From Polyangiaceae bacterium (GTDB taxonomy: Bacteria > Myxococcota_A > Polyangia > Polyangiales > Polyangiaceae), in assembly GCA_016933275.1 (NCBI GenBank), contig JAFGBI010000379.1:1-64000 (forward strand): a stretch of DNA of 64,000 bases, given 5' to 3'. The translations under genes were made by a program, and so were the position numbers. Positions within the stretch are counted from its first letter, which is position 1. Every line of letters begins with the position of its first letter. The notes beneath the pieces were generated by a model. It made no database searches. It was not told the DNA's origin and worked only from the letters and a program-made list of their open reading frames with translations. This document shows positions 1 to 31,669 of the stretch, in pieces.

Positions 1-280
1 AACGGCAGCGCTGGAAACGCGTCCGTGCGAGGCGAGGACGCGTTTCCAGCGCTGCCTCTGGAGAGGTCTGCTGCCGGTTCGGTGCTCGAGTCCCTTGGCG
101 GCGTGATCTTGACCGGATCCGGCAGAAAATCTCTCAATGCTCTCGTGGCTATCAGCAATCAGGCGTTAGCGATCAGGGTCTCCACGTTCTACCTGACCGC
201 TGACCGCTGATGGCCTGGCCTGTTCGGTTCCGGCTCCGCCGGCTTGGGTTGTTGATTTGACGCAGCAATCAACCTGATTG
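1..280 (-). repeat. Intergenic repeat, copy A (cut by window edge)
   Basis: This is one of three related non-coding repeats in the window. Bases 4-24 and 36-56 are perfect 21-bp inverted repeats around an 11-nt loop. Bases 74-86 (CCGGTTCGGTGCT) are one terminal repeat of the 110-bp cassette, whose other end lies off the window. Bases 81-246 align by eye with 31501-31669 of copy C. Bases 247-280 are an exact 34/34 reverse complement of bases 13761-13794 in copy B. The cassette is inverted relative to the ~165-bp module when compared with copy C. The repeat stops 5 nt before the stop codon of the FHA-Wzz gene, so it lies at that gene's 3' end. I see no ORF worth calling in it. Confidence 0.85.
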
Positions 281-285
281 CTGCT

Positions 286-2343
286 CTAGCCGCGCCGAAT
301 CGCGCGTGCCGCGGCGGGCGGTCGTTGCTCGACCACCTCGACTCGGGGCAGCCGCCGTACGATGGCAATGAGCTCGGCGATGGCGGCCCACGCCACCGCG
401 AGGAACATCCCAACGGCCATCCCGATGGCGGAGCGTAGCGCCAAGTTTCTGCGGAGGGCGACGCCAATCGAGTGCGGCGGAACCACCACCTCGTAGCGGG
501 CTTGCGCGGTCGCTCGCTCGATCTCGAGCTGCGTCTCGGCTTGGCGGAGTCGTTCGACGATGCGCCCGTGCAACCCCTTGTCCGTGTCCACCAGGCGGGT
601 GAGGCGGTTGAGCTCCGTCTCGACCGCGGGGAGCTTGCGCATGGCTTCGCCTGCGCCCCCGATCTGTCCCCCTACCGCCGACAGCGCTTTCTCTGCGCCC
701 ATCAGCTGCACCTCGAGATCGCCGATGCGATCCTTGAGGCGGGTATACTCGGGATTCGCGGACCGATCGAGATCGGTCGGTGCCGCCCGGGTGGTCGCCT
801 CCACCTGTCTTCGCAGGTTCTCGGCTTCGGCCTCGGCCTGGCGCACCTCCGGATGCTCGGGCCCCAGACCTCGCCCGCGCAGCTCGGCCAGTCGCTGGTT
901 CGCCTGGGTCAGTGCGGCCTGGTAGGGACCCGCTTCCCGGACCTTGGCTTCGATGAGGGGGCTCTCTCGGGCCAGCCGCTCACGGGCGAGCCTCAGCTCC
1001 CCACGCATTCGGGTGACCTCCGCGCTGAGCTCGCCAGCGCGACCCTCCATTCCTGCCGCCGCCGCCACCCGATTGGTTGCGAACTCCGGGAGGTGCTCGA
1101 GGTTCTTCTCGCGGAAGCGCCGGAGGTCATCCTCGTTCTTCTCGAGTCGCGCTGCGGTTTCCTCGACGCGCGTGTTCAAGAGGTCAACCTCTGCCTGGTA
1201 GACCCGGAGGGTCTTCTCGATCTCGCGCGCGAGGTAGAGCTCGAGGTGCGTGCGGAGGAACCGCACCGCCCACTCGCCGTCACGGTCGGTGATCGAACCT
1301 TCGAACATCCGGTCGTTGATGGCGGCAAAGGAGAGCTTCTTGGTGAGTCGTCCTACCCGATCGGGGCTCGGATTGGGTTCGCCGAGCTCGGTGAGGGTGG
1401 CCTGGATGAGACGTCCTTCCCGGAACGTCTCCGAGGCCGCATGGAAGAACTCCCTCTGCGGGCGGGGACGAGTCATCTGTGGCTCGTTCTGGAGCGGGTT
1501 TTCCTGCGCGGACGTGTCAAGGGAGACGATGAACTCGGCGCGGTTCGGTGGCGGCAAGACGGCTAGGGAGAAGATGGCGAGCACCCCGCCGGCGGTGGGG
1601 AGGCCGAGCAGGAGCCGCCAGTGCCGCCGGACGTAGGCGAAGGCCACCATCGCCTTCTGGACCCGCTCTTCGAGCGTCGGCGGGCGCTCTTCGTCGGAGG
1701 CGATCGAGATCACCTGACTGGCAACGGCCGCCCTCGACAGCGCCTCCGCCCGCAGGGGGGCCAGCGCGAGCGCCGCGGGGTTGCGGTCGAGGAGAACGGT
1801 GTCGTGGCTTGGTAGGTCCCCGCCGAGGCGAAAGAGGAGCATCGTATCGACGATCTCCACCCGATCTCCGCTGGCCAGGGGTGTTGCCTCCGTGATGGGG
1901 ACACCGTTCACCGAGGTCCCGTTGGCGCTGCCCAGGTCGTTGACGAGGAAACGATCCCCCACCCGCTCGATCATGGCGTGGAGCTGGGACACGGCAGGGT
2001 CGTCGATGCGAATCGGTGCGGTGGGCGCCCGTCCGATGAGCACGGAGCCCTTGCTGAATCCATAGACACGGCCCACGTCGCGGCCCCGAAGGACCACGAG
2101 AGCCGCCTCGACCGGATCGCTGTCGATGGAGCTCGGGACCGGGTTCGTGTGGGCGAGAGCGCGGTCGAGGGTCGCCTCCAGATCATCACTCGAAGAGGAC
2201 GAGCCGGCGCCTCCCAACATCGCATCGAGCTTGCTCTCGAGTCCATTTGCCTCAGTCTTTCCCCCATCGGCGTGGCCGTCGTCGGTGCTGCCGGGGGTCG
2301 GGTCGTCGCCGTGAGGACCAATCGGTGCTGGGGGCTGAGTCAA
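286..2343 (-). CDS. FHA-domain Wzz/GNVR-like polysaccharide chain-length protein
   Basis: This 685-residue protein joins a phosphothreonine-binding FHA domain to a polysaccharide co-polymerase. Residues about 82-172 carry FHA motifs (GRAPTAPIRID, SQLHA, NDLGSANGTSVNG). A membrane segment follows at about 242-264, then a long coiled-coil periplasmic region (370-620) with the GNVR-like LPAVETELNRLTRLV, and a second membrane segment at about 634-662. Two flanking helices around a coiled coil is the Wzz/PCP layout; these proteins set chain length or assist export of surface polysaccharide. No tyrosine-kinase domain follows. The start is TTG at 2343, which shares a 4-nt TTGA overlap with the stop of the upstream kinase, so the two are probably translationally coupled. 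The FHA fusion suggests that phosphorylation, perhaps by that kinase, controls it; this is inference. Confidence 0.85.
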   Translation of the reverse strand: MTQPPAPIGPHGDDPTPGSTDDGHADGGKTEANGLESKLDAMLGGAGSSSSSDDLEATLDRALAHTNPVPSSIDSDPVEAALVVLRGRDVGRVYGFSKGSVLIGRAPTAPIRIDDPAVSQLHAMIERVGDRFLVNDLGSANGTSVNGVPITEATPLASGDRVEIVDTMLLFRLGGDLPSHDTVLLDRNPAALALAPLRAEALSRAAVASQVISIASDEERPPTLEERVQKAMVAFAYVRRHWRLLLGLPTAGGVLAIFSLAVLPPPNRAEFIVSLDTSAQENPLQNEPQMTRPRPQREFFHAASETFREGRLIQATLTELGEPNPSPDRVGRLTKKLSFAAINDRMFEGSITDRDGEWAVRFLRTHLELYLAREIEKTLRVYQAEVDLLNTRVEETAARLEKNEDDLRRFREKNLEHLPEFATNRVAAAAGMEGRAGELSAEVTRMRGELRLARERLARESPLIEAKVREAGPYQAALTQANQRLAELRGRGLGPEHPEVRQAEAEAENLRRQVEATTRAAPTDLDRSANPEYTRLKDRIGDLEVQLMGAEKALSAVGGQIGGAGEAMRKLPAVETELNRLTRLVDTDKGLHGRIVERLRQAETQLEIERATAQARYEVVVPPHSIGVALRRNLALRSAIGMAVGMFLAVAWAAIAELIAIVRRLPRVEVVEQRPPAAARAIRRG

Positions 2344-11459: not shown

Positions 11460-12269
11460 ATGGTCGCGCGCGTCCTCGTGGTGGCTGGCTCGGACTCCGG
11501 CGGAGGCGCCGGGATTCAGGCAGATGTCAAGACCGTGACCGCCCTTGGCGGTTACGCCATGACGGCGATCACGGCACTCACCGCCCAGAACACCCGAGGC
11601 GTGTTCGGGATCCTGCCAATCGACACGGAGTTCATCCGGCAACAGCTCGAGGTCGTGTTGAGTGACCTCGGCGCCGATGTCGTGAAGACCGGGATGCTCC
11701 ACTCCGCCAGCGTCGTCTCGGCGGTCGCCGGCACCCTCGCCATGTACGCGCGGGACGTGCCGCTCGTGGTCGATCCCGTGATGGTCGCCAAGGGCGGTGC
11801 CACGCTGCTCGAGCCGGCCGCGCGTTTCGCGCTGGTGGAGAAGCTCCTGCCGCGGGCTGCGCTCATCACGCCGAATGCACCGGAGGCCGCGGCGCTCACG
11901 GGACTCCCGGTGCGGGACGTCGACGATCTCGCGGCGGTCGCCGACCGGCTCCTGCTCCTCGGCCCCTCCGCGGTCTTGGTGAAGGGTGGACATCTGCCAG
12001 GAGCATCGGTCGTCGATCTACTGCGCACAGCGGACGGCTTCGAGCGCTACTTCGAGAGCCCGCGCCTCGAGACCACCAACACGCATGGCACCGGGTGCAC
12101 GCTGGCCTCCGCGATCGCCACCGGGATTGCCGAGGGGCTCACCCTGGAGCACGCGGTCGAGCGCGCGCGAGGCTATGTGGCCCAGGCGATCCGCACCGCG
12201 CCGGGGTTCGGGAAAGGGCATGGACCGCTCTACCACGCGCACACGTTTCGCCGGCCCATCGAGGCCTGA
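11460..12269 (+). CDS. thiD: Hydroxymethylpyrimidine/phosphomethylpyrimidine kinase
   Basis: This 269-residue ribokinase-fold enzyme phosphorylates HMP to HMP-P and then HMP-PP for thiamine synthesis. Diagnostic stretches are VVAGSDSGGGAGIQADVKT at the N-terminus, ALTAQNTRGVFGI, VVDPVMVAKGGATLL, LVKGGHLPG, and the C-terminal THGTGCTLASAIATGIAEG with the anion-hole glycines and catalytic-base region. The ATG at 11460 places the conserved N-terminus at residue 1; an open frame extends further upstream but only as a shadow of the membrane-protein gene. No other thiamine genes are in the window. The lipoprotein gene begins 40 nt downstream on the same strand. Confidence 0.95.
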   Translation: MVARVLVVAGSDSGGGAGIQADVKTVTALGGYAMTAITALTAQNTRGVFGILPIDTEFIRQQLEVVLSDLGADVVKTGMLHSASVVSAVAGTLAMYARDVPLVVDPVMVAKGGATLLEPAARFALVEKLLPRAALITPNAPEAAALTGLPVRDVDDLAAVADRLLLLGPSAVLVKGGHLPGASVVDLLRTADGFERYFESPRLETTNTHGTGCTLASAIATGIAEGLTLEHAVERARGYVAQAIRTAPGFGKGHGPLYHAHTFRRPIEA

Positions 12270-12309
12270 GCCCCGCGGCGGCGAGGCTTCGCGCGACGGC
12301 GCCGCCGTC

Positions 12310-13707
12310 GTGCGGGGCTTTCTGGTGGGGGCCGCGCTGACGGCGGTCATCACCGCCTGCGCGAAGGATCACCCGAGAGAACTCGAATGGCCGAGTGTGT
12401 CGGCGGCGGGGACCGCTGGAACGGGGGGATGGCCGGGGGGGGGGACCGCCGGGAGCGAAGTCGAGTCGGGCGGGAGCGCCGCCGGTGCGGGACCCGCAGA
12501 GCCACCAGGCCCACCCATGGTGACGCTCCTGCACGGGATCGTCGACGCGCCGACGCTTGCCTTCTGCGTCGCGCGCACCGTCGAAGGCGAGGTGATCCCG
12601 ATGGGTAGTCCGTTCCCCGACCGGGGGCTCCCCTTCGCCGGTGCGGTCGCGCTCGGCGAGCTTCCCGGTCTCGATGTCGCGGCCGAGGATGCCACGCTCT
12701 ACGTGATTGCCGGCACCCCCGAGGTGCTCGCGGAGCTCGATTGCGCTTCGGCCATCCGTCGTGCGGCCGAACTCGCTCGCGCGAACGGGGGGGCTGGGGG
12801 CTCTGCGGGCGGGACCACCGCCGGGGCGGGTGGCGGAGCGGGAACTCCACCGCTAGTGGCTCGAGCGGGAGCCGGCGGCGACCTCGGGATGAGTGGGGAC
12901 GGGGGCGACGTGGCGGTGGGTGCAGCGGGCGCTCTTGGTGAGTCGGGGACGCGCGGCAACGCAGGTGCGGCGGCGCCCGGTGCGGCGGGGATCCGCGGCG
13001 CCGGGGGCGTCGCTGGCGCAACGGGAGCCGGCGGCGCCGCGGGCATCAGCGGCGCGGCCGGGGCCGCCGCCGGGGCGGGGGGGGCTGGGCTACGGTCCCG
13101 TCCCCCACCCGAGCTCCGCGCCGCGGCGCTGGCCACGATCCCCGAAGGAACCCTCGCCCGCGAGCGGAGCACGCTGCTCGTCGCGCGCGGCTGCCTCGGC
13201 GGGGGCTACGTGCCTGGCGCCGATTTGGAGTCGATCTGTGGCGCGGGCGGCACCTCGTCCGGCTTCACCGCTTCACCCCTGTTCGTGCGGCTCTCGCGGC
13301 TCACCGCGCCGGATTCCGTCGGCCTGACGGCGGTGCATGCCGCGACCCCGGTGGCCGCCGACGAGCGGCTCTCCGTGGCGCTCACCCTCGATGGTTCGAC
13401 GCCGATCGAGCTCGTCACCGGTCTTCTTCCTGGCAGCATCGCGCTACCGCCGGTGTTCGTCCCGAACGTGGACTTCTCCGCGATGGTTCTGGGCGGGGCC
13501 GTGTCGGTCGGCGCAGGTCGCGCGCCGACCGCGACGGTCTCTGTCTCCTGGTCCGAGATCCTCGCGCGGACCGACGACGGAGCGCCCCGCGCCGGGGGTG
13601 TCGTCGCCCTCGTCATCGTGGGGCCCGGCTTGGGTGTGGAGCTCGGGATGGGACCGTGGAACCCACCCACGGTGGGACTGGTCGACGCCGCACCCGCGCT
13701 CCAGTGA
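12310..13707 (+). CDS. Gly/Ala-rich lipoprotein with collagen-like segment
   Basis: The predicted product is 465 residues and starts at GTG 12310, giving a short lipoprotein signal (GFLVGAALTAVITAC) with the lipidated Cys at residue 17. A low-complexity Gly/Ala/Ser linker follows, then a folded stretch beginning VTLLHGIVDAPTLAFCV, reminiscent of DUF4397-like beta domains. Next come about 110 residues of Gly-every-third-position sequence (GESGTRGNAGAAAPGAAG and similar), and a second beta-rich region up to the end. Such Gly-rich lipoproteins are common on myxobacterial surfaces. There is no strong ribosome site before the GTG, and the frame is open further upstream inside thiD, so the start rests on the signal peptide. 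Function is unknown; a surface or periplasmic role is inferred. Confidence 0.75.
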   Translation: MRGFLVGAALTAVITACAKDHPRELEWPSVSAAGTAGTGGWPGGGTAGSEVESGGSAAGAGPAEPPGPPMVTLLHGIVDAPTLAFCVARTVEGEVIPMGSPFPDRGLPFAGAVALGELPGLDVAAEDATLYVIAGTPEVLAELDCASAIRRAAELARANGGAGGSAGGTTAGAGGGAGTPPLVARAGAGGDLGMSGDGGDVAVGAAGALGESGTRGNAGAAAPGAAGIRGAGGVAGATGAGGAAGISGAAGAAAGAGGAGLRSRPPPELRAAALATIPEGTLARERSTLLVARGCLGGGYVPGADLESICGAGGTSSGFTASPLFVRLSRLTAPDSVGLTAVHAATPVAADERLSVALTLDGSTPIELVTGLLPGSIALPPVFVPNVDFSAMVLGGAVSVGAGRAPTATVSVSWSEILARTDDGAPRAGGVVALVIVGPGLGVELGMGPWNPPTVGLVDAAPALQ

Positions 13708-13760
13708 CCCCGCTCCGAGGGCGAGTCCGGGGGGTTCTCGGGCGCAGAGGCGAGAGCCTC

Positions 13761-13907
13761 CAATCAGGTTGATTGCTGCGTCAAATCAACAACCTAGAGC
13801 ACCGAACCGGCAGCAGACCCCTCCAGAGGCCGCGTTGGAAACGCGTCCTCGCCTCGCACGGACGCGTTTCCAGCGCTGCCGTTGCTGGTGGCAACCGGAT
13901 CGGTGCT
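13761..13907 (+). repeat. Intergenic repeat, copy B (end module plus 110-bp cassette)
   Basis: Bases 13761-13794 are the 34-bp end sequence, the exact reverse complement of 247-280. The cassette spans 13798-13907 and is bounded by AGCACCGAACCGG and CCGGATCGGTGCT, which are 12/13 inverted repeats. Inside it, arms 13828-13848 and 13860-13880 flank an 11-nt loop; two positions differ between the arms, one of them compatible with a G-U pair. The ~165-bp module of copies A and C is absent. The copy lies between the convergent lipoprotein and TPR genes. Confidence 0.88.
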
Positions 13908-13941
13908 TTGGGCCAGGATCGAGGTCATGGCATGCCCGTCC

Positions 13942-14805
13942 TCAATGCAGGAGCTGGATCTCGGCGAGGCGGCGTTTGGCGTCGAGCGCGAGCGGGCCGT
14001 CCGGGAAGCGGCGGAGGAAGGAGCGCAGGGTGTTCTTGGCATCGTTCCACGCCTGGATGCTCGCCTGGGTCTCGGCCAAGAGGAGCGCGGCGTCGTCCAT
14101 CACCTCCCGGTCCGCCGACGCCTCCGAGAGCGGCTGCAGCAGGCGGATCGCCTCGCGTTGGCGTCCGAGCGCCACGAGCGATTGCGCGAGCACCAAGGTG
14201 GCCTGGGGGCTGTGTGCCGCGTCGCTCTTGTAGCTCAGCGACTCGCGCAGCTGGGTCTGCGCCTCGTTCCAACGGCCATTTCGCGCATGATCGAGCCCGT
14301 TTTGGTAGGCGATGATGGATAGCTCGTTCTTGGCGCGTTCGACGGCGGCATCGAAGACGGCACGCTCGGTCGGGGTCAGCTCGAGCTTCGTGACCTCCTC
14401 GTAGCCCTTCACCACGTCCGCGCGTTTGTTCTGGCGGACGAGCTCGAAGTACTGGGCTGCCTTCCGGCTGGCACGCGTGCGAGCCTCCTCGCGTTCCTGC
14501 ACGATCGTTGACTCCGCCTCCATCTGAGCCAGCCGGTCGCGCTGATCCTTCGTCTCGGCGCGGATGGCGGCGACGCGCGCGTCCCAGGCGATCTTGAGCG
14601 AGACGAAGACCACCGCGATCGTGACCACGTAGGCGGTCGCGCTTCGGAAGACGAATTGCCGCTCCGACGCCTGCTGGCGTTTCGCGATGCTCTTGAGATC
14701 GGCGGCCAGGGCGTTGACGAGGTTGTTCGTCTTGATCGTGAGCGAGCGGCTCTCGACGATCTCTCGCTTGATCTCCTCGAGCTCGTACTCGTCCAGTCCT
14801 GGCAC
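13942..14805 (-). CDS. Membrane-anchored TPR protein
   Basis: The 287-residue protein has a charged N-terminal region (1-52), one membrane helix at about 54-74 (ATAYVVTIAVVFVSLKIAW), a coiled coil (75-115) and then helical repeats of TPR type to the C-terminus. The clearest is LRSFLRRFPDGPLALDAKRRLAEI, typical of YbgF/CpoB-like TPR ends. The start is GTG 14805 with AGGGGA a few bases upstream. It is divergent from efp and convergent with the lipoprotein gene, with repeat B in between. The TPR part probably binds a protein partner; which side of the membrane it faces is uncertain. It is not a recognised named protein. A longer overlapping frame (13925-14908) encodes only Arg/Gly-rich shadow sequence. 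Confidence 0.82.
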   Translation of the reverse strand: MPGLDEYELEEIKREIVESRSLTIKTNNLVNALAADLKSIAKRQQASERQFVFRSATAYVVTIAVVFVSLKIAWDARVAAIRAETKDQRDRLAQMEAESTIVQEREEARTRASRKAAQYFELVRQNKRADVVKGYEEVTKLELTPTERAVFDAAVERAKNELSIIAYQNGLDHARNGRWNEAQTQLRESLSYKSDAAHSPQATLVLAQSLVALGRQREAIRLLQPLSEASADREVMDDAALLLAETQASIQAWNDAKNTLRSFLRRFPDGPLALDAKRRLAEIQLLH

Positions 14806-14970
14806 GGGAGTCCCCTATCGCCGCGGGGCCCCTGCGGCAAGGTCGGCTCGCTGCTCGCTCGGCGAGGACCGGGCGGGGAGCGGTCTCTCCTTGGCGCCCC
14901 CTGAACATGGGGTGGTGTGGGCGCCGTGCGGCCCGCGACCGCGATTCCGGTGCGGTTGCTCAGGCCGTTC

Positions 14971-17850: not shown

Positions 17851-20800
17851 ATGGATTCTCGAACGATCCGTACGGCCCTGGGCTTGCTGCAAGACGACCC
17901 CGAGAACGAGGGAGGTTGGACGTCGCTGCGCGCGGCGGCGGAGGTCGCCGAAGGTGACCTCTCCCTCGCGGAGGGGCTCCATCTCTTCGCTTCTGCGCGG
18001 GAACAGTATCGCGAACGGGGCGAGTGGGATGGCGTGGCAAGCCTGCTCGAGATCTCCGCTGCCGTCGCAACACCGGAGGAGCGGCCCGCGTTGTTGCTGG
18101 AGCTCGCCAAGGTGTACGGAGAGGAGCACCTGGACGAGGTATCGGCGCGCGAGGCGCTGGAGATCGTGCAACGGCTCCTGCCGGAGGATCCGACCGTCGC
18201 GGCTGCGGTGGAGGACAGTCTGGAGCGCGGTGTCAAATGGAAGGAGCTGGTGTCGACGTACGCGGCGGAGGCGGACGGGGCCCCGGACGACGTCTATCGG
18301 AGCTCGATGCTGATGCGGGCTGCCGAGGTCGCGGTTCGGTTCGGCGGCGAAGCCGCCGACACGAGGACGGCCATCGACCAGCTCGAGCAGGCGGTTCGCC
18401 TCGACACCAACAACGATCGCGCCGTTCGTCTGCTCGAGCGGCTCTATCGACAAGTGGGCGCGTGGGAGGATGCCGCGCGAGTGCTCGAGCGCGCCGCCGA
18501 CTGCGCCGAGGATCCTCGGGCGAGATTCGCCGCCGGACGTCGTCTCGCGCGTTTGTACCTTCGGAAGCTCGAGGACCAGGAGCGCTGCATTCGCGCCTAT
18601 CAGCGGGTGCTGAAGGACGCGCCGGAGGACCGCGAGGCCAAGGCATTCCTCTCCGAGCTCTTCTCTCGCGAGGAGCGTTGGGAGGAGCTGGTCAGGCTCT
18701 ACGAGCGCGAGATCGACCGTGACACGAGCGGCCGCGACCGTCTGGGCGATATGGTGCAGATCGCCATGCTGCACTGGCGGAAGCTCGGCCGCCAGCAGGA
18801 GGCGGAGCAGTGGTTCGAGCGGGTTCGCAAGCTTGAACCAGCGCACCCCGGTGCGCTCGCGTTCTTCCGTGACTACCTCTCGGGTCTCGGCGATGATGCT
18901 CGCCTGGTCGGCGTGCTCCAGGCCGCCCAGCGGGCGGTCCCCGCGGAGGACGAGAAGGCGCGGCTCGGCACCGAGATCGGTCGGCTCAGCGAGGGCCTGC
19001 AGAACGCGCAGAAGGCGATCGAACAGTACAAGAGCGTGCTGCGCCACGATCCGGACAACGTCGACGCGCGCGAGGCGCTGAAGCGCCTGTACAAGCAGAC
19101 CGAGGGGTACAACGCGCTGGTCGAGCTGCTGCGGCAGCAGCTCGAGCGGACGGATCCCAACGACTACCCGCGGCGGCTCGGGATCCTCCGTGAGGTCGCG
19201 GGTGTGTATCGTACCTACCTGAAGAGTGACACCGCGCTCGTGAGCGTGCTCAACCAGATCGTGCAGCTGGACGAGAAGGTCGACGCCGAGGACGTCGAGG
19301 AGCTCCGGGAGCTGGTCCAGCTCTACCAGAAGCTCGGGCGTTGGCGCGATCTGCTCACTTGGCAACTCAAGCTCGCCGAGGTCACCCCCGACCTCGGGGA
19401 AAAGAAGGCCCTCTATCGAGCGGCGGGCGAGCGGTGGCTCGAGCAGTTCACGAACGTACAGAACGCCACCGAGGCCTACGAACGCCTCCTCGAGCTCGCG
19501 CCGGACGACGCGGATGCGCGTCGGAAGTTGGAGGAGCTCTATCGCAAGCGTCGGGCCTGGCCTGCCCTCTATCAGCTGTTCGAAGGCGACCTCGCCCAGC
19601 AGACCGGGTCGAGTCGGGTTTCCGTGCTCAAGGAGATGGCACAACTCGCCGCCGAACGGCTCAATCGTGGCGAGGACGCGGTCCGCCTCTACAAGCAGAT
19701 CCTCGACGAGGATCCGTCGCGTACCGAGGTCCTGGACGTACTGGAGAAACACGCCGAACGCGCGCGCGACTGGCCCACACTCGCCGACGCGTTGGAACGG
19801 CGCATCGCCCTCGTGGACGACGGCAAGGACCGTCTGGCGGTGCTGCAGAAGTTGGGCGCCGTGTACGCCGAACACTTGGGTGACGCTCCCGCGGCGGCGC
19901 GGACCTGGCGGCGGGTCCTGGAGCTTCAGCCCGGACACCACCGAGCGCTGCGTGTCCTCCGCGACGGGTGTCTGGAGGCTGGCGACTACTCGGGGCTCGA
20001 GGAGCTTTATGCGTCGCAAGACGATTTCGAGGGGCTCGCGGACGTGCTGAGCAACGCGGCGGATCGCGCGAAGGACGCGGCGACGAAGATTGACCTCTCG
20101 TATCGTGCGGCGGCCGTCTACGAGAACCAGCTCGGCGCTCCCGACCGTGCCTTCCGCTCCTATGAGCGGGTGCTGCAAACCAATCCCGCCGACGCGAGGG
20201 CCGCTCGGGCGCTGATCCCGCTCTACGAACGAGACGAGAAGTGGGCGCGGCTGCCGCCGCTCTACGAGGTGCTCGTGAGCCAGACGGACGATCCGGATGC
20301 GCAGCTTGCCCTGCTCCAGAAGCTCGTCGAGGTCACGGGGTCTCGCCTGAGCGATCGACGCGCGGCGGTTGGCTTCGCCCGTCGCGCCTACGAGGTTGCC
20401 CCGACGCTGGCGCTACCGGTCCTCGAGGAGACCGTGCGGCTGGCGGGGGCGTGGGACGTCCTGGTCGAGTGTATCGCGGCCCGGCTGGCCCAGGGGCAAT
20501 CGGTCCTGCCGCCTTCGCCCGAGCGGAGCGAGGAGGAGGAGCCGAAGGCCGGGAAGAAGCGCAAGCCCCGCAAGGGCGAGGCCGCGGTTGGCGACGCGAC
20601 GGCGGAGGTCGTGGATGCCGGGCGCGCCCGCATCGAGTCGCCCTCCGGCGCCGGCGGGCCTGCCCCGGACGAGCGCCGGCGGCTTCACCTGCGTCTGGCG
20701 GAGCTCTACGCCGATGAGCTCGGTCGCTCGGGCGACGCCGTGTCGACCTACCAGAAGCTGCTCGAGCGCGATCCCACGGATATCGAAGCAGCGAACGCGC

Positions 20801-23800
20801 TCGAGACCATCCTCCGCCGTGAGGATCGCCGCGACGATTTGCGCTGGCTCCTCGACCTGCGGGTAGAGCACGCGCCCGATGACGAGGTGCGCGTCCGCGT
20901 CCTGGGTGAGTGGGCCGCGCTCGAGGAGGACGCCTTCGAGGCCAACGATCGCGCGGCGGTGCTCTATGCACGGGTGCTCGATCTCGATCCCGGGGATCGC
21001 GTCGCCCTGCGGGCATTGCCGCGGCTACTGCTCGGGGCCGGCGACGTGGAGGGTGCCGTCGCCGTCATCGAACGGGATCGCGACCGAGCGGAGGCGGACG
21101 AGCGTGCGGAGCGGGAGATCGAACTGGCGCAGCTCTACCTCGACCGCCTGGAGCGACCCCTCGATGCTCTCGAGGCGGCAGTTCGCGCCCTCGACATCCG
21201 GGGCTCCGAACCGCGCGCGATCGACGTGCTCGAGCGCACGCTGGATCTGCCGGTCACCCAAGCTCGCGCTGCCGCGGTGCTCGCTGATGTCTACGCGGCG
21301 TCGGGCGACGCTCGTCGGCAGGTTCGGGCGCTCGAGGTCATGCTTCGCCACGCTGGCGAGCGCAGCGAGCGTCTGGAACTGGTGGAGCGTCTCGCTTCCG
21401 TCAACGAGGAGCGTCTCGAGTCGTACAGCGCCGCGCTCGAGGTGGTGCTCCGCGCCCTCCGTGAATACCCGACGGAGCTCCCGCTCTGGGATCGGGCGGA
21501 GGCCCTCGCGGCTCGAGCAGGGCGGCCCACTGATCTAGCGGAGACGCTGCGCGAAGTGCTGCGCGGAGATCTCGGACACGAGCTCGTCATCAATCTCAGC
21601 GAGCGCGCGGCGCGCCTGCACGAGGAGCGTCTCGGGGATCCGACGGGTGCGATCCCGTACCTCGAGAAGGTACTGGCGCTCGATCCCAGCAATGATCCGG
21701 CGTTCAAGCGCCTCAAGGACATCCTGACCGCCGCCGAGAGGTGGTCCGAGCTCGAGGCGCTCTACGATCGATCGTCCGAGGCGACGGACGACTCGGCTCG
21801 GCGGGTCGAGATGCTGACCGAGGTCGCGTTGATCTGCGACGAGATCATCGAGGATGGCACCAAGGCGCGGCGGTACTACGAGCGTATCCTCGAGATCGAC
21901 CCGCTCAACGAGCCGGCCGTGCGCGCCCTCGACCGACTGTACGCGGCCCAGGGGCAGGACGCGGCGCTGGCCAAGCTGATCGAGCGGCGGCTCGAGACCG
22001 CGGTGGGTGAGGAGCGCATCGAGCTGGAGCTCCGGCTCGCAAGGATCCAGCTGGAGAAGCTGCTCGAGCCGGCGGCGGCAGCCGGTCACGTGGAGCATGT
22101 CCTCGCCGAACAGCCGCAGGACTACGCTGCGCGTGACCTGGCCGAGAAGCTCCTCGAGATTGGGAGCTTGCGGGGGCGTGCGGCGCGCATGCTGGAGCGC
22201 GTCTATGAGCAGCGTGACGGCACGCGCGATCTGGTGCGGGTGCTAGCGATTCGCCTCGAGGAGCTCGAGGCGGATCTCGAGCGAGCGCCAGATGATGGGG
22301 ACCAGCTCGAAGAGCGCCGGGGGCTGCTCCGCCGGATCGCGATTCTCCGCGACGATCGCCTCCACGACGACGAGGGCGCTTTCGAGGTCCTCACCCGGCT
22401 CGTTCCGCAAGATCCGGGCGACAGCGACGCGCGCCAGCGGCTGCTCGAGATCGGACGGCGCATCGGGGCCCATGGCCGGGTCGCCGACGTGCTCGCGGTC
22501 GCTGCCGAGCGCACGGATGCCTCCATCGTGAAGGGGGAGATCCTGATGCGGGTAGCCGCCATCTACGCGGATCTTCTGGGGGATGTCGAGGGCGCGGAGG
22601 CGACCTATCGCCGCGTGCTCACGCTCGACGAAGACGATCCGGATCTCGTGCTCCCCGCTGCGCGGGCCCTGGAAGCGATCTACGCCGCCGCGGGCCGGCA
22701 TGCCGATCTCGCCGCGATCCTACGGATCCAGGTCAACCTCGAGCGGGATGGCGCTCTCCGGAGTCGGCTCTTGGGGCGGCTGGGGGACCTCTGCCAGACG
22801 GAGCTCGGGGACAACGCCGGCGCGATCGCGGCCTGGCGTACCCGGTTGGAGGATGACCCGCAGGACACCGTCGCCCTGGCGGCCCTCGATGCGCTCTACG
22901 AGCGAACAGAGGCCTGGGCCGACCTGGTCGCCATCCTCGAGCGCCGGCGGGACGCAACCTCGGACGCCGGCGAGCGACGGGTGCTCATGACGCGAATGGC
23001 CACCATCCTGGGCAGCCGACTCGAAAGCACGTCCGATGCCATCACGGCTTGGCGCGCGGTCATCGATGAGTTTGGTTCCGACGAGTCCTCTCTGCGCGCG
23101 ATGGAGAGTCTGCTCTCGTCCGCCGGGCGGTGGGACGAGCTGCCCGACATCTACGAGCGTCATCTGCAGATCGTCGAAACGTATGCCGATCGGCTAGACC
23201 TCTTGGTGGAGATCGGCAACCTGCGTCGAAACCACCTGAACGACGTGCCCGGAGCGCTCGATGCGTACCGGAACGCCCTCACCCTCGACGCCAGCCATCA
23301 GCGGAGCCGGGAGGCCATGGAACGGCTCCTGGACGGCGACGACCACATCACCCGGCGGGAAGCAGCGGAGGTCTTGCACCCGATCTACGAAGCCGACGGC
23401 AACCATCGACAGCTGCTCCACGTGCTCGAGATCGAAGTGGATGCGACCGATGATTCGGAGGCTCGGCTCGCGGGTCTGGCGAAGGCGATGAACGTGGCCG
23501 AAGGGGCGTTGGGCGATCCGGCGCGGGCGTTCGGTTTCGCGCAGCAGGCGCTGCGCGTCGCGCTCGGTCGCGAGGAACTCGGCCCCTGGCTGGCTCACGT
23601 CGAGCGCCTCGCTGCGGCGACGGATCAGCAGGCTGCGCAGGTGGCACTCCTTCGTGAGGTCATCCCGGACATCTTCGAAGGAGACGTGCAGGTAGAGGTC
23701 ATCATGAAGGTGGCTGACCTCGCGCGAAATCGCCTGGGCGATCGAGAATTGGCGCGGGAATACTACGGCAAGGTGCTCGAGCTCCGCGCTGACGACCCGC

Positions 23801-26800
23801 GGGCGCTGGTGGCGCTCGAATCGCTCTTCGAGGAGAGCGGCAACGCGGCGGAGCTCCTGGGCGTCCTCGAGCGGCGGGCCGAGGTGGCGACGAGCGACAG
23901 CGAGCGCAAGGAGCTCCTCTTCCGTCGCGCTCGGCTCCTGGCCGACGCCATCGGGGACCGGCTCCGGGCCATCGAGGTCTACGAGGCGATCCTCGATATG
24001 GGCATGGACCCGGTGGCCGTGAGCGCCCTCGAGGACCTCTACCAAGCCGAGGAGCGGTGGAGTGACCTCATCGCGCTGTACGAACGGATGGTGGAGGCGG
24101 GCACGCGACAGCCCGCTGATCTCCGCGTGAAGATCGCCAATGTGGCGGCGCGGAAACAGAACGACATTGGCCGGGCGTTTGAGGAGCTCGAGCGCGCCCT
24201 CGAGCTCGAGCGCCAGCATGCCGAGGCCATCGTCGCGCTGGAGGGCTTGCTCGCCGACGCGACCGAGGCCGAGCATCGCGCGCGAGCTGCGGCGCTCCTC
24301 GAGCCGGTCTACCTCATTCGCGCGGACTATGACCGGGTGATGGTGACCCTGCGCGCACGAAGGGAGGTCGCTTCGGATCCCGCTGAACGGCGCGACCTGT
24401 TGAATCGCCTCGCCCAGCTCTACGAGGAACAGAAGGAGGACTACGTCGCGGCGCTCGATACGACCGCGGAGCTCCTCGACGACGACCTCTCCGACGCTGC
24501 CGCGATCGCCGAGCTCGAGCGGCTGGCGAAGGTCGCTGGGGCGGAGCGGCGGCTGGCGGAGATCTACGCCAGGGTGATCGGAGGGCTGTCGAGTGACGAC
24601 GAGGCAAGTGCCCGCCTGGCTCGCCGCACCGGGGAGATCTTCGCCGGGATCGGGGAGCTGGAGCGCGCCCTCGAGTACCTGCGTCGTGCCCTGGCGTTCG
24701 AGCCGGAGAACGACGAGCTGTTTGGCGCCGTCGATGCGCTCCTCGAGCGCGCCGAGCGCCATGAGGAGAGGGTCGACCTTTATCGGTCTGCCCTCGATCA
24801 CCGATACGACCCCACCACGCGCTCAGGATTGCTGCACACGATTGCCTCGCTGCAGCGGCAGCGGTTGGGCCGTCCCGACGACGCCATCGACACCTATCGG
24901 GCAGCGCTCGACGTCGATGACACGGACGCCGCCGCGCTCGACGCGCTGACCGAGCTGTTTCGTGACCGAGGCCGCTGGTCGGATCTCGCTGACCTCTACC
25001 TTCGGCGAGCCGAAGCGGCGGACGACGACCGTCGCGCGGCGGCCTTCCGAATTGCGCTCGCTCGCCTCTTCCGGGACGAGCTCAGCGACGTCGACCGCGC
25101 CATCGATCAGCTCGAGGAGATCGTGCGGCGCACGCCTGAGCATGGCGAGGCGATCAAGGAGCTCGAGGGCATGCTGCCCGACCCCGGCCAGAAGGAGCGG
25201 GTGGTGGACATTCTCCGTCCCCTCTACGAGTCTCAGGACAACTGGCGGCACACCATTCGCCTGAACGAAGAGCGGTACGCTCTGGCGGAGACACCGGCGG
25301 ATCGCGTCGTCGTGCTGCGCGAAACCGCGACGCTGTGGGAGACGCGGGGGAACGATCCCGAACGGGCGTGCCGCGCAGTTCGGGCGGCGGTCGCGCTCGA
25401 TCCGGACGACGCGGAGACGCGGGCGGAGCTCGAGCGCTTGACCGCGTCTACGGGGGGATGGTCGGCCCTGGCGGCGGCATACGAGGAGATCCTCCAGCAG
25501 CAACCCGATCTGGCCAGTCGGCGCGACGTCCTGGCCGTGCTGGCCGCGACGACGGATGAACGACTCGATGATCCCCGCCGGGCGCTGCTGGCGTACGAGC
25601 GGCTGCACGAGGCGGACGTCACCGAACTCGAGCCGCTGGAGAAGATGGAGCGGCTGGCCATGCTGCTTTCCGACTGGCGAGCGCTGGTCAAGGCGCTCGT
25701 CGCGAAGGCGGACCTGCTGCTGGGTGACGCCGAACGAGCCGCGACCTGGCGTCAGATCGGCGAGGCCCGGCGCGACATGCTCGAAGACGCACCGGGTGCG
25801 ATAGAGGCGTACGAGCGCGCCTTCGACCTGGAATCGGATCGCGCTTTCACCGTGGACTGTCTGATCGACCTCTACGAGGCCAAGGGTGACGCATCGCGTC
25901 TCGTGGAGCTCTACCAGCGGCGCGTCGAGCTTTGCGAGGACGACGACGAGCTCAGGTACGACCTGTTGCTGAGATCGGCCCAGGTCTTCGAGGAGTCGAT
26001 GTCCGATCGTCCGCGGGCGATCGACGTGTTGACTCAGGCGCTTGCCATTCGTCCGGCGGATCGTCCTGTCCTCGCGGCGCTCAATCGTCTGTATCGAGCC
26101 GAGGAGATGTGGCCCGAGCTCCTCGAGAACCTGCGCATCGAAGCAGGTACCGCGGAGGCGGTCGTGGACCGCGCAGGATTCCGGCGTGACATGGGGAAGG
26201 TCCTCGACGAGAAGCTCGCGAGCTTCGACGAGGCGGTCGAGGCCTATCGGTCGGTCCTCGAGGAGGTCCCCGATGACGCCGAGTCCATCGCGGCCGTGCG
26301 CGCGATGGGAGCGGCGCACGAAGAGCTTCGCGAAGTGGTTGCCGCGGTGCTGGTCCCCGTGCTGCGCTCGGGCCAGCGCTACGCGGAGCTGGTCGACGTG
26401 CTCGAGCTCCGGCTCTCGGTGGAGACCGACCCGGTTCAGCGGAGCGAGACGTTGTGCTCGATCGCCGAGGTCCTGGAGTCCCGCCTCGGGGATCCGAGTG
26501 CGGCACTGGGTGCGATGCTGCGGGGGATGGCAGAGCGCCCCGAGGAGGATGCGATCCACCGGGACGTCGAGCGTCTCGCGGCGGCGGTAGACGGGTGGGC
26601 GATGGCGGCGGATGCGCTGGCCGCGCGGGCCCAGTCCGCCTTCGATCCCTCCCTGCTGAAGGATCTCTATCTTCGCCTCGGCCGCATCGCCGAGGAGCAC
26701 CTTCGGGACGACCCACGAGCGATCACGGCCTACGTGCACGCCGTGGAGCAGGCAGGGGACGATCCGGAGCTGCTGGCGGCACTCGATCGGCTCTACGAAC

Positions 26801-29241
26801 GCACCGGGGACCGTCGGGCGTTGGCCGACGTCCTCGAGCGACGAGCTGGCGTGGTCAACGATCCGAGCGCCGAGGCAGAGCTGCTCTACCGACTGGCCAT
26901 CCTCCAGATCGGGGATTTTGGCGACTCGACGCAGGGCCTGGGATCGCTGCGGGCAGCCTTGGAGCGCGATCCTGCCCACGAGAACGCGACGGAGGAGCTG
27001 GAGAAGCTCACCAGCCAGCGCGAGCTGTTCGAGGAGGCGGTCGAGGTGCTCGAACAGGTGTACCGGACCCGTGGGCGGACCGAGCGGCTCGTTGCCCTGT
27101 ACGGCAAGCGCGTCGACTTCGCGGAATCGAGCGTGGAGAGGATCGAGACGCGGCGCAGTCTCGCGCGGGTGCTCGAGGACGACGCCCGCGACCCGGTCCG
27201 CGCGCAGCGGGTGCTCGAGGCGGCGCTGCAGGACGATCCAGGGGACTCTGCCTTGTTGGAGGAGATCGAACGACTCGCGCCGATCACTGGTGATTGGGCG
27301 GGCCCCGCGGTCGTTCTTCGTTCGGCTGTCGATGGGGCGGGGGATCTGGCGGCGGACGTGGCTCGGGAGCTGCTGGTGCGCTGCGCCGGTTGGCTGCGTG
27401 ATCGCGCCGGCGACCGTGCCGGAGCGGAGTCCGTGCTCGCGCGAGCGCTCGCCTACGACTCGACCAGCGATGAAGTGCTGGCGCAGATCGAGGAGCTTCA
27501 GCGGGATCCGGGGCGGGAGCGTGACCTTGTCGCGACGCTGCGTCAGCGTGCGGCGCTGCAGGTGGACGACGTCAAGCGGGAGGAGCTTCATCGCCAAGCG
27601 AAGGACCTCGCCGATCGCCTCGGGGATGCCGAACTCGGGGAGCAGATCCTGCGCGACCTGGTCGCGCACGACGACGTGAACGTGTGGGCCCTCAGCGAGC
27701 TTACCCGTCTGCGGGAGGCGGCGGGGGACTACGCTGAAACCTTCGCCCTCCTGCTCCGTCGCAGCGAGCTTCCGGCGAGTGCCGAGATCGTCAAGGATCT
27801 CCAGCACCAGGCGGCGGCGATCGCCCGGGACCGCCTCGATAGGAAGGACCAGGCAGCAGAGCTTTTCGCAACGCTGTTCGAGGACGATCCATTCGATCGG
27901 TTGGCTGCCGATGCGCTCCAGACGCTCTACAGCGAAGCCGAGCGATGGGATGACCTGGTGAGACTGATCGAGCGGCTCGTCGACCTCGCCGACACGCCGG
28001 CGGCGCGGTCGGCGCTTCGAATCGAGCTCGCGCGTCTGAATGCCGAGCACTTCCAGTCCTACGACACGTCCATCAATCTCCTGCGAGACGTCCTCGACGA
28101 GGAGCCAGGACACCCGGAGGCCGTGGTCGTCTTGAGCCAGTTCCTCGAGAAGACCGATCGGGATGAAGAGCTGGCGGAACTCCTGGAGAGCCAGATCGGA
28201 GCGGCCCGTGAGCGGCGGGAAAGCGGCGCGGAGGTGCGTTTCCTGCTGCGTCTCGCTGACGTCTGCGAGGGTCGGCTGCGGGATCGGGAGCGCGCGATCG
28301 GTACGCTGCGGCAGGTCCTGGAGTGTGAAAGCAGGAACCAGGCCGCGCTCGGCGCTCTGGGACGGCTACACCAGGCAGTGGGCCAGTACGCTGAAGCCGC
28401 TGCGGTGCTCGAGCAGCTCGTCGAGGTCGCCGATCGTGCAGCCATCGTGGGGCTCGCCAGCACCTTGGCCGACGTTTACGAGAAGCTCGATGATCGAGCC
28501 GCCGCGGCACGAGCCTTGGAGCGCGCTGTCGACGTGGATCCCGGGAACGACGGCATTCGGCGTCGCCTGCGGGCGTTGTACACGGCCACCGAGAGCTGGG
28601 AGCAGCTCGCGGACATGATCGCTAGGGACGCCGATCTCGCCAGCGAGGTGGGGGAGAAGGTCGCCTTGCTGCGGCAGGCCGCGGACATCCACGCGGCTCG
28701 TCGAAGCGACGTGGCGGCGAGCGCGCGTGTCCTCGAGAAGGCGAGCGAGCTCTGCCCGGATGATAGGAGTCTGCTGCTGCAGCTCTGCGACGCCTACAGC
28801 GCCTCTGGGCGCGGCAGCGAAGCGGCGAGGGTGCTGGAGCGGGTGGTCGAGTCCTTCGGCACCAAGCGCACGAAGGAGCTGGCCGATATCCACCGGCGCC
28901 TCGCCGATGCCTACCTCGCGGATGGTGACTCGACGCGGGCGTTGTCAGAGCTCGACAAGGCGTTCCGCATCGAGCCCGGTAACATCAACGTGCTGCTGAA
29001 GCTCGGGGACGTGGCGTTCGACACCGGGGACTTGAAGAAGGCCCAGCAGATGTTCCGAGCCCTCCTCTTGCAGCGCCTGGACCAGGGGCCGATCACGAAG
29101 GCCGAGGTGTTCTACAAGATCGGGGAGACGCACCTTCGCCTCGACGAGAAGCCCAAGGCGAAACAGCACTTCGAACGCGCCCTGCAGGCTGACCCCAACC
29201 ACGCGGCGTCCAGGGCGCGCATCGAGGAGTTGAAGGGCTAG
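17851..29241 (+). CDS. Giant TPR-repeat protein (3796 residues)
   Basis: A single uninterrupted frame of 11.4 kb encodes a protein made almost wholly of helical repeats. A larger unit of roughly 105-110 residues, about three TPR-like hairpins, recurs some 35 times by eye. Landmarks are W-x-x-L turns (RWEELVRLYEREIDRD, DWPTLADALERRIALVDD), E-x-L-G-D (EDLGD-like) and RVLELDP-like ends. The last ~120 residues are canonical TPRs (KAQQMFRALL, KAKQHFERALQADPNH). A charged Lys/Glu/Pro linker at about 886-943 is the only clear break. There is no signal peptide or membrane helix, so a cytoplasmic scaffold is likely. GGAG lies just upstream of the ATG. The same repeat type forms the middle of the pseudokinase protein at 58415-63727. 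The partner is unknown. Confidence 0.9.
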   Translation: MDSRTIRTALGLLQDDPENEGGWTSLRAAAEVAEGDLSLAEGLHLFASAREQYRERGEWDGVASLLEISAAVATPEERPALLLELAKVYGEEHLDEVSAREALEIVQRLLPEDPTVAAAVEDSLERGVKWKELVSTYAAEADGAPDDVYRSSMLMRAAEVAVRFGGEAADTRTAIDQLEQAVRLDTNNDRAVRLLERLYRQVGAWEDAARVLERAADCAEDPRARFAAGRRLARLYLRKLEDQERCIRAYQRVLKDAPEDREAKAFLSELFSREERWEELVRLYEREIDRDTSGRDRLGDMVQIAMLHWRKLGRQQEAEQWFERVRKLEPAHPGALAFFRDYLSGLGDDARLVGVLQAAQRAVPAEDEKARLGTEIGRLSEGLQNAQKAIEQYKSVLRHDPDNVDAREALKRLYKQTEGYNALVELLRQQLERTDPNDYPRRLGILREVAGVYRTYLKSDTALVSVLNQIVQLDEKVDAEDVEELRELVQLYQKLGRWRDLLTWQLKLAEVTPDLGEKKALYRAAGERWLEQFTNVQNATEAYERLLELAPDDADARRKLEELYRKRRAWPALYQLFEGDLAQQTGSSRVSVLKEMAQLAAERLNRGEDAVRLYKQILDEDPSRTEVLDVLEKHAERARDWPTLADALERRIALVDDGKDRLAVLQKLGAVYAEHLGDAPAAARTWRRVLELQPGHHRALRVLRDGCLEAGDYSGLEELYASQDDFEGLADVLSNAADRAKDAATKIDLSYRAAAVYENQLGAPDRAFRSYERVLQTNPADARAARALIPLYERDEKWARLPPLYEVLVSQTDDPDAQLALLQKLVEVTGSRLSDRRAAVGFARRAYEVAPTLALPVLEETVRLAGAWDVLVECIAARLAQGQSVLPPSPERSEEEEPKAGKKRKPRKGEAAVGDATAEVVDAGRARIESPSGAGGPAPDERRRLHLRLAELYADELGRSGDAVSTYQKLLERDPTDIEAANALETILRREDRRDDLRWLLDLRVEHAPDDEVRVRVLGEWAALEEDAFEANDRAAVLYARVLDLDPGDRVALRALPRLLLGAGDVEGAVAVIERDRDRAEADERAEREIELAQLYLDRLERPLDALEAAVRALDIRGSEPRAIDVLERTLDLPVTQARAAAVLADVYAASGDARRQVRALEVMLRHAGERSERLELVERLASVNEERLESYSAALEVVLRALREYPTELPLWDRAEALAARAGRPTDLAETLREVLRGDLGHELVINLSERAARLHEERLGDPTGAIPYLEKVLALDPSNDPAFKRLKDILTAAERWSELEALYDRSSEATDDSARRVEMLTEVALICDEIIEDGTKARRYYERILEIDPLNEPAVRALDRLYAAQGQDAALAKLIERRLETAVGEERIELELRLARIQLEKLLEPAAAAGHVEHVLAEQPQDYAARDLAEKLLEIGSLRGRAARMLERVYEQRDGTRDLVRVLAIRLEELEADLERAPDDGDQLEERRGLLRRIAILRDDRLHDDEGAFEVLTRLVPQDPGDSDARQRLLEIGRRIGAHGRVADVLAVAAERTDASIVKGEILMRVAAIYADLLGDVEGAEATYRRVLTLDEDDPDLVLPAARALEAIYAAAGRHADLAAILRIQVNLERDGALRSRLLGRLGDLCQTELGDNAGAIAAWRTRLEDDPQDTVALAALDALYERTEAWADLVAILERRRDATSDAGERRVLMTRMATILGSRLESTSDAITAWRAVIDEFGSDESSLRAMESLLSSAGRWDELPDIYERHLQIVETYADRLDLLVEIGNLRRNHLNDVPGALDAYRNALTLDASHQRSREAMERLLDGDDHITRREAAEVLHPIYEADGNHRQLLHVLEIEVDATDDSEARLAGLAKAMNVAEGALGDPARAFGFAQQALRVALGREELGPWLAHVERLAAATDQQAAQVALLREVIPDIFEGDVQVEVIMKVADLARNRLGDRELAREYYGKVLELRADDPRALVALESLFEESGNAAELLGVLERRAEVATSDSERKELLFRRARLLADAIGDRLRAIEVYEAILDMGMDPVAVSALEDLYQAEERWSDLIALYERMVEAGTRQPADLRVKIANVAARKQNDIGRAFEELERALELERQHAEAIVALEGLLADATEAEHRARAAALLEPVYLIRADYDRVMVTLRARREVASDPAERRDLLNRLAQLYEEQKEDYVAALDTTAELLDDDLSDAAAIAELERLAKVAGAERRLAEIYARVIGGLSSDDEASARLARRTGEIFAGIGELERALEYLRRALAFEPENDELFGAVDALLERAERHEERVDLYRSALDHRYDPTTRSGLLHTIASLQRQRLGRPDDAIDTYRAALDVDDTDAAALDALTELFRDRGRWSDLADLYLRRAEAADDDRRAAAFRIALARLFRDELSDVDRAIDQLEEIVRRTPEHGEAIKELEGMLPDPGQKERVVDILRPLYESQDNWRHTIRLNEERYALAETPADRVVVLRETATLWETRGNDPERACRAVRAAVALDPDDAETRAELERLTASTGGWSALAAAYEEILQQQPDLASRRDVLAVLAATTDERLDDPRRALLAYERLHEADVTELEPLEKMERLAMLLSDWRALVKALVAKADLLLGDAERAATWRQIGEARRDMLEDAPGAIEAYERAFDLESDRAFTVDCLIDLYEAKGDASRLVELYQRRVELCEDDDELRYDLLLRSAQVFEESMSDRPRAIDVLTQALAIRPADRPVLAALNRLYRAEEMWPELLENLRIEAGTAEAVVDRAGFRRDMGKVLDEKLASFDEAVEAYRSVLEEVPDDAESIAAVRAMGAAHEELREVVAAVLVPVLRSGQRYAELVDVLELRLSVETDPVQRSETLCSIAEVLESRLGDPSAALGAMLRGMAERPEEDAIHRDVERLAAAVDGWAMAADALAARAQSAFDPSLLKDLYLRLGRIAEEHLRDDPRAITAYVHAVEQAGDDPELLAALDRLYERTGDRRALADVLERRAGVVNDPSAEAELLYRLAILQIGDFGDSTQGLGSLRAALERDPAHENATEELEKLTSQRELFEEAVEVLEQVYRTRGRTERLVALYGKRVDFAESSVERIETRRSLARVLEDDARDPVRAQRVLEAALQDDPGDSALLEEIERLAPITGDWAGPAVVLRSAVDGAGDLAADVARELLVRCAGWLRDRAGDRAGAESVLARALAYDSTSDEVLAQIEELQRDPGRERDLVATLRQRAALQVDDVKREELHRQAKDLADRLGDAELGEQILRDLVAHDDVNVWALSELTRLREAAGDYAETFALLLRRSELPASAEIVKDLQHQAAAIARDRLDRKDQAAELFATLFEDDPFDRLAADALQTLYSEAERWDDLVRLIERLVDLADTPAARSALRIELARLNAEHFQSYDTSINLLRDVLDEEPGHPEAVVVLSQFLEKTDRDEELAELLESQIGAARERRESGAEVRFLLRLADVCEGRLRDRERAIGTLRQVLECESRNQAALGALGRLHQAVGQYAEAAAVLEQLVEVADRAAIVGLASTLADVYEKLDDRAAAARALERAVDVDPGNDGIRRRLRALYTATESWEQLADMIARDADLASEVGEKVALLRQAADIHAARRSDVAASARVLEKASELCPDDRSLLLQLCDAYSASGRGSEAARVLERVVESFGTKRTKELADIHRRLADAYLADGDSTRALSELDKAFRIEPGNINVLLKLGDVAFDTGDLKKAQQMFRALLLQRLDQGPITKAEVFYKIGETHLRLDEKPKAKQHFERALQADPNHAASRARIEELKG

Positions 29242-31353: not shown

Positions 31354-31358
31354 AGCCG

Positions 31359-31669
31359 CAATCAGGTTGACCGCTGCGTCGGATCAAGAAGCCTAGAGCA
31401 CCGAACCGGCAGCGGCTCTCGCCCGAGGCAGCGCTGGAAACGTGCCCTCGCTGGGCATGGGTGCGTCTCCAGCGCTGCCGGTGCTGTCGGCAACCTGACT
31501 GATGCTCTCGTCCCGTGGCGGTGCGGTCTTCGCCAGATCTGGCAGGAAGCTCGTCAGCCTTCTCGCGGCCATCAGTGACCAGCCGTCACCGCTCAGGGTT
31601 CTCGTGCTTCACCTGACAGCTGACGTTTGACCGCTGATGGCCTGTCTGGTTCCGGGTCCGCCGGGTTGG
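31359..31669 (+). repeat. Intergenic repeat, copy C (end module, 110-bp cassette, ~165-bp module)
   Basis: Bases 31359-31393 are a diverged form of the 34-bp end sequence. The cassette is 31397-31506, again exactly 110 bp, with inner arms at 31427-31447 and 31459-31479 and an 11-nt loop of different sequence. Of the three arm differences, two preserve pairing as G-U. Bases 31501-31669 align by eye with 81-246 of copy A, at roughly 70% identity. The right end module is missing or decayed. It fills most of the convergent gap (31354-31711) between the lipoprotein gene and the 442-residue protein gene. Confidence 0.85.

Follow-up and report, generated by a model that had tools for sequence, protein, structure and literature searches.

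Three related palindromic repeats without coding capacity stand between the genes of a single contig of a Polyangiaceae bacterium, and the question they raise is what the mobile unit is and by what kind of system it has been spread. They were noted in a first-pass annotation of the window, by which we mean the whole stretch of 64,000 nucleotides analysed here, taken from a genome (G000) of 8.25 Mb in 464 contigs with a GC content of 67.6% in the first stretches analysed. Reading the letters directly, we found the three copies (A, B, and C) where they had been placed. The layout of 30+21+11+21+27 bp given for the cassette is correct in copies B and C, and the existing part of copy A has identical spacing (arms 4-24 and 36-56). 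The 34-bp end said to be shared, inverted, by copies A and B is there as well and corresponds to a separate hairpin module, H (259-279 on the minus strand and 13762-13782 on the plus strand, with a chance expectation of 0); the version in copy C has 2 mismatches to that of A and B. Copy B also has the 12/13 outer inverted repeat (AGCACCGAACCGG / AGCACCGATCCGG). The delimitation had to be changed: the 110-bp cassette exists as claimed, but it makes up most of a longer mobile unit, a 160-bp element running from CTAG to CTAG.

Copy A (1-289, minus strand) consists of a left CTAG, the H module (247-289, minus), which carries the left terminal repeat and the left hairpin GCAGCAATCA-GGT-TGATTGCTGC, a separate dispersed repeat named M3 placed between H and the cassette (91-242, minus, 95% to the M3 query), and a cassette that lacks its 3' part (1-90, minus). 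Its right end is absent because the contig, C63, begins at window base 1. The terminal CTAG (286-289) contains the TAG stop (286-288, minus strand) of a 685-aa FHA-domain ORF at 286-2343. Copy B (about 13752-13910, plus strand) is of the 160-bp type with decayed outer CTAGs (left ..AGCCTCCAATCAGG, right ..GCTTTGG). It has its H module at 13761-13797 (plus) up to and including the internal CTAG (13794-13797), followed by the 110-bp cassette (13798-13907, plus; arms 13828-13848 and 13860-13880, 11-nt loop TCGCCTCGCAC), and is located between the convergent ORFs 11986-13707 (+) and 13925-14908 (-). Copy C (31350-31509, plus strand), also between convergent ORFs, is an older, diverged 160-bp element with an internal CTAG at 31393-31396, a central hairpin at 31427-31479 (plus; arms 31427-31447 and 31459-31479, loop TCGCTGGGCAT), and a right end ..GATGCTCTCG. 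The ORF 30442-31353 (plus) has its stop codon in the left CTAG of copy C (31350-31353, plus), as the TAG at 31351-31353. An M3 in the opposite orientation (31511-31665, minus, 76% to the M3 query) adjoins the copy. Elsewhere in the window there is a very weak cassette-like stretch (51960-52120, ~69%) that might be an ancient remnant of the family. The gene content noted includes Ser/Thr kinases, FHA proteins, type II secretion, and TPR giants, among them a 3796-aa ORF built of TPR repeats (17851-29241). Such gene content, the size of the genome, and its deltaproteobacterial relative suggest a link to myxobacteria.

The genome-wide search proposed in the first-pass annotation returned hundreds of copies with shared boundaries, which excludes that the family is made of these three only. 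We estimate about 330 copies in G000 from the two modules counted separately. The 19-nt arm has 649 matches with at most 3 mismatches (15 for the reversed control) and occurs twice per cassette, which gives about 325 cassettes; the H hairpin has 670 matches (0 for the reversed control) and, being near-palindromic and counted on both strands, amounts to about 335 copies. A census of modules in 1.77 Mb of the genome identified 207 H modules and 210 cassettes. By far the commonest arrangement is H followed by the cassette in fixed orientation with a single CTAG joint (113 clusters); H-M3-cassette comes next (12 clusters), and then short chains. Besides the chains, which are of the types H-H-C, H-C-H, and H-M3-C, there are tandem copies and remnants with only one of the two modules. 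We had considered the cassette alone as the mobile unit and dropped this option since the fixed-order pair dominates. M3 is itself a dispersed repeat of about 155 bp, with 67 matches in the 1.77 Mb, that is often bounded by CTAG and contains a GACCGCT tandem stretch of variable length; it is found alone, in tandem, or between H and the cassette.

The 113 intact elements have the same start and stop bases. They are composed, in order, of a CTAG, the 46-bp H module, the internal CTAG, the nested-palindrome cassette, and a last CTAG, following the formula CTAG-A-GCAGCAATCAGGTTGATTGCTGC-linker-CTAG-cassette-CTAG (160 bp including the terminal CTAGs). The unit between the TAs reads GAGCAGCAATCAGGTTG...CAACCTGATCGGTGCTC (160 bp), and the mode of the end-to-end length is 155-158 bp. 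The elements contain no genes. They are bounded by imperfect terminal inverted repeats of about 17 bp (GAGCASCRATCAGGTTG); in G000, 14 of 17 positions agree between the left end GAGCAGCAATCAGGTTG and the right end read in reverse complement, GAGCACCGATCAGGTTG.

The bases around the elements point to a precise target. A C directly precedes the left TA in 109 of the 113 intact elements, the full CTAG is present at the left end of 85 and at the right end of 68, and the flanks beyond it differ from copy to copy without any motif. Departures from the terminal CTAG are mostly CTGG or CCAG. These may be the changes expected from very-short-patch repair of CTAG, a process that may also explain the depletion of this tetranucleotide in G000, where it is about fivefold rarer than composition predicts (282 against 1335 expected). 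We joined the flanks of each element and searched for them in the G000 DNA analysed, an approach that covers paralogous sites within the same genome. Empty sites were found for 14 of the 113 elements, inside other repeat families, and in each the flanks meet precisely at a CTAG, intact or decayed. The pattern is thus CTAG becoming CTAG-element-CTAG, as when the empty GGCGGACTAGGAGGCGCG is filled to GGCGGAC-TA-GAGCACC...GCTGCTC-TA-GGAGGCGCG, and is consistent with a TA duplication inside CTAG. A TA is present at both ends in 62 of the 113 elements; nearly all targets are CTAG, so that a duplication of TA and one of CTAG look alike, and empty sites alone therefore cannot separate them. One of the few sites of another kind, a GTAC on contig C99 with TA on both sides of the element (left cacG-TA-GAG, right CTC-TA-Cttg), fits a duplication of 2 bp (TA) better than one of 4 bp, judging from its sequence. 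The target repeats that supply empty sites include the families R4 (about 165 bp, 27 matches) and R6 (14 matches), for example at C11:6267, C174:5963, and C297:10625 of G000. A second palindromic repeat bounded by CTAG, R5 (CTAGCGCGGGACAGGCC...GGATCGTGCCCGCGCTAG, 26 matches in the DNA examined), has a terminal CTAG in which elements are inserted (e.g. the L012 flank, C219:14410, and C251:114185 in G000).

IS630 prefers TA within 5'-CTAG-3' and duplicates the TA (Tenzen and Ohtsubo 1991, as cited in PMC2170065). The elements match this account of its insertion, with a C at position -1 in 109/113 and empty sites at CTAG. Because of the target, the duplication, and the ends, we interpret the repeat as a non-autonomous MITE family of IS630/Tc1-mariner-like type, comparable with RUP and Correia, rather than as a REPIN/RAYT system, with a probability of roughly 0.78 and with a mobiliser that we infer. 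The first-pass annotation had proposed a MITE or a REPIN-type element. The former part stands, given the boundaries shared by hundreds of copies, the terminal inverted repeats, the exact empty sites, the TA/CTAG duplication, and the lack of coding sequence; the latter does not, given the inverted-repeat termini and a search of G000, G009, and G027 that revealed no RAYT-like Y1 gene with the ends. A spread of modules by homologous exchange at CTAG-bearing palindromes, with no transposase, would account for the chains and tandems, but only precise integration would yield unrelated flanks up to the CTAG, empty sites that are exact, and the constant H-C order of 113 clusters, which makes this explanation very improbable.

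Relatives inform on what is kept of such an element. Among 59 relatives screened, four further genera of the family have homologues of similar length. They measure 158-162 bp in G009 (the MAG Deltaproteobacteria bacterium SZUA-265), G027, and G028. In G009 the element is in high copy and has kept H and the outer ends, with a completely different central palindrome; in G028 the left hairpin differs too, and the linker, the loop CCTCGC, and the right end are kept. The fourth, G029, has elements of 158-165 bp with another interior and perfect terminal repeats of about 21 bp (TAGAGCACCRATCAGTTTGAA). G000, G009, and G027 also have inverted repeats at the ends; these are weak in G028, whose left end GGACGACAAACGG hardly matches its right end, and strict terminal inverted repeats are thus not universal. 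In a survey of 318 genomes of the class, a 16-nt end (CTGATYGGTGCTCTAG) was found in 24, from 21 genera and at least 8 families, whereas the reversed control gave 1 match in all 318. Elements of 159-163 bp with both ends occur in G083, G085, and G267, and the single ends seen in several other genomes of the class may be remnants. In another genome (G266, locus L326), a bare hairpin right behind a gene (GAGCACCGACTGATCGGTGCTCTAG) corresponds to the end motif without an element.

We searched G000, G009, and G027 for the transposase families Y1_Tnp, DDE_3, DDE_Tnp_1, and DDE_Tnp_1_2 and found none with the ends of the element; the transposase with the same ends that the first-pass annotation had proposed to look for was therefore not found in these three genomes for these four families. 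The best terminal-repeat match at the 5 DDE_3 loci of the three genomes was no better than shuffled sequence, and the IS630-like genes of these genomes do not have the ends. Pairs of ends spaced by 250-3500 bp, searched in the 1.77 Mb of G000 and in relatives, enclose only M3-bearing or neighbouring elements, and none of the 19 loci with orphan right ends across the class has, within reach, a mate with an evident transposase. A candidate autonomous element of 1473 bp in C337 was discarded because the gene it encloses, which we take to be a glycosyl hydrolase, is not a transposase. Two elements are associated with IS630 transposase remnants, one lying inside and the other adjoining (remnants at L080 1858-2060 and L083 1395-1512; in L083 the element is just behind an intact-looking recA).

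These data also bear on a single-strand mechanism of the REPIN or IS200/IS605 type, in which a Y1 (RAYT-like) enzyme would recognise a tetranucleotide CTAG and a hairpin at each end, without a true target duplication. The hairpin directly adjoining the CTAG of the left end would suit it, as would the covariation of the stems, the ends of G028, which are not clear inverted repeats, and the empty-site pattern, in which CTAG becomes CTAG..CTAG. Yet G009, with its high-copy element, has no Y1_Tnp match, the single Y1 locus of G000 lacks the ends, inverted repeats bound the element in G000, G009, and G027 and are perfect in G029, and the target is palindromic, a property that a guide-strand system does not need. 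We regard such a mechanism as distinctly improbable.

Known small elements offer the closest comparisons to a MITE family. RUP is intergenic, 107 bp long, and present in about 100 copies, with terminal inverted repeats, TA termini, and a TA duplication; it is enriched between convergent genes, is found inside IS transposase genes, and has IS630-Spn1 as its proposed mobiliser (PMC2229807, PMC3049150). The repeat of G000 resembles it as a small intergenic element with terminal inverted repeats and TA ends, an enrichment between convergent genes, and copies in IS transposase sequence. It differs, as far as the descriptions can be compared, in having about 330 copies of 160 bp with two hairpin modules, a CTAG target, and no matching IS found. 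The Correia/NEMIS elements of Neisseria occur in hundreds of copies. They are of about 107-155 bp, with terminal inverted repeats of about 24 bp, TA termini, and a strong stem-loop (PMC2229807). Size, terminal repeats, TA termini, stem-loop, and copies in the hundreds are common to both families; the ends are others, and here a nested palindrome is combined with a left hairpin and interiors are exchanged between genera under the same ends. ERIC/IRU, an intergenic palindromic element of 127 bp with TA termini (PMC2229807), is from another host group and has terminal repeats of another size, and no construction from two modules with a nested cassette of 110 bp appears in its description. BOX of pneumococcus ranges from 67 to 637 bp (PMC3049150) and is likewise a modular intergenic repeat, but its length is variable, whereas a fixed 160-bp unit of H plus cassette dominates here (113 clusters). 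IS630 shares the insertion at the TA of 5'-CTAG-3' with TA duplication, within the account cited above, but encodes its transposase, and IS630-like genes in these genomes lack the ends of the element. REPINs are also short palindromes at hundreds of intergenic places; here there is no RAYT with the ends and no GTAG-type REP unit, and the ends are of the inverted-repeat type with a CTAG target. The window has no Rfam match at the gathering threshold, the plasmid, phage, and IMG/VR collections contain no match to the element, and the literature searched yielded no such family, for this class included. The earlier view that no described family matches thus holds within these collections and this literature: the family is probably new, and is set apart from RUP, Correia, and ERIC by their described properties, on which the comparison was based.

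The position of elements relative to genes was studied with a simple codon-usage gene finder trained on G000 contigs, which provided 102 elements with two neighbouring genes. None of the 102 is in a coding frame, against 55% of other CTAG sites. Their neighbours are convergent for 43, tandem for 49, and divergent for 10 (P=1e-9 and 1e-6 for context), and these contexts make up 17%, 53%, and 30% of the intergenic length, respectively; convergent regions are thus enriched (43/102 against 17% of length). At 31 of the 102 elements a gene has its stop on the TAG contained in the terminal CTAG, more often than at other non-coding CTAG sites (74/377, P=0.016). In the window, copies A and C (2 of 3) are such cases, and B and C lie between convergent ORFs. 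Since the first base of the element is G and its last base C, an insertion into C-TA-G has a CTAG at either junction and thereby keeps a TAG stop, and we infer that this preservation is relevant to the survival of the element.

If the MITE reading is right, a DDE transposase acting in trans, either IS630/Tc1-mariner-like or from another group that duplicates TA (e.g. IS427 in the IS5 family), would bind the ends, excise the element, and insert it at the TA of a CTAG, duplicating the TA. The initial G and final C would restore CTAG at both junctions, each of which could serve as a fresh target (module chains and tandems are observed), and a TAG stop hit by an insertion would stay intact. Copies that land in a coding frame or in a divergent, promoter-bearing region would be purged, and the survivors would be found at the 3' ends of genes. 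The palindromic interior would be held by compensatory change while its letters turn over between genera; its candidate roles are strand folding or transposase assembly, harmless or terminating transcripts, and upkeep by template switching.

The same distribution could result from a domesticated regulatory repeat that provides bidirectional terminators or RNA-processing hairpins at the 3' ends of genes, a role compatible with a MITE origin. Enrichment at stop codons and between convergent genes would be expected from it. The fold is very stable (z -11.4 as RNA), and an alignment of 12 elements from four genera has 39 pairs in six helices, of which 22 changed on both sides with pairing kept. 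In this alignment 92% of the cells are paired, and 0 of 500 shuffles reach these pair values, in a comparison biased towards the structure, which this alignment itself supplied; with partners slid by 1-3 columns at most 48% are paired. Such compensatory changes across genera could speak for RNA function, and so could the mispairs in stems, among which G.U is mildly more frequent than A.C (180:133, P=0.009, relatedness ignored). We gave up judging RNA function from this asymmetry, the excess being weak. Against a regulatory role, a parasitic MITE under purifying selection predicts the same distribution, and the skew of RUP, BOX, and SPRITE to convergent regions in pneumococcus was read as a sign of parasitic MITEs (PMC3049150). 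The orientation preference is not significant (30:19, P=0.15), and many stem changes in the G000 copies affect one side only, as expected of neutral decay. Paired changes could also arise without selection, through template-switch correction of quasi-palindromes. We find domestication unlikely, if the least so of the alternatives to a purely parasitic MITE.

A broader hypothesis is that of a class-wide, structure-constrained mobile family in which ends and a length of about 160 bp are kept and the interior is replaced, always by co-varying nested hairpins. The folded strand, as DNA in transposition or as RNA in transcripts, would be the selected substrate, and the family would be moved by a transposase with a target tuned for the survival of stop codons. 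We put it forward as speculative and rather unlikely in this full form.

A very abundant interspersed repeat is now named and bounded, and its end sequence traced through a class of myxobacteria-like bacteria with large genomes. Much of the fragmentation of the G000 assembly is explained by this repeat: of the 92 contig ends examined, 41 have a copy within 200 bp, where about 8 would be expected. The CTAG rule, by which the target is regenerated and TAG stops stay intact, gives a simple and testable account of how a parasite can sit at hundreds of gene ends with little damage, and the class-wide conservation of ends around exchanged, co-varying interiors offers a direct test of whether the structure of a MITE is selected.
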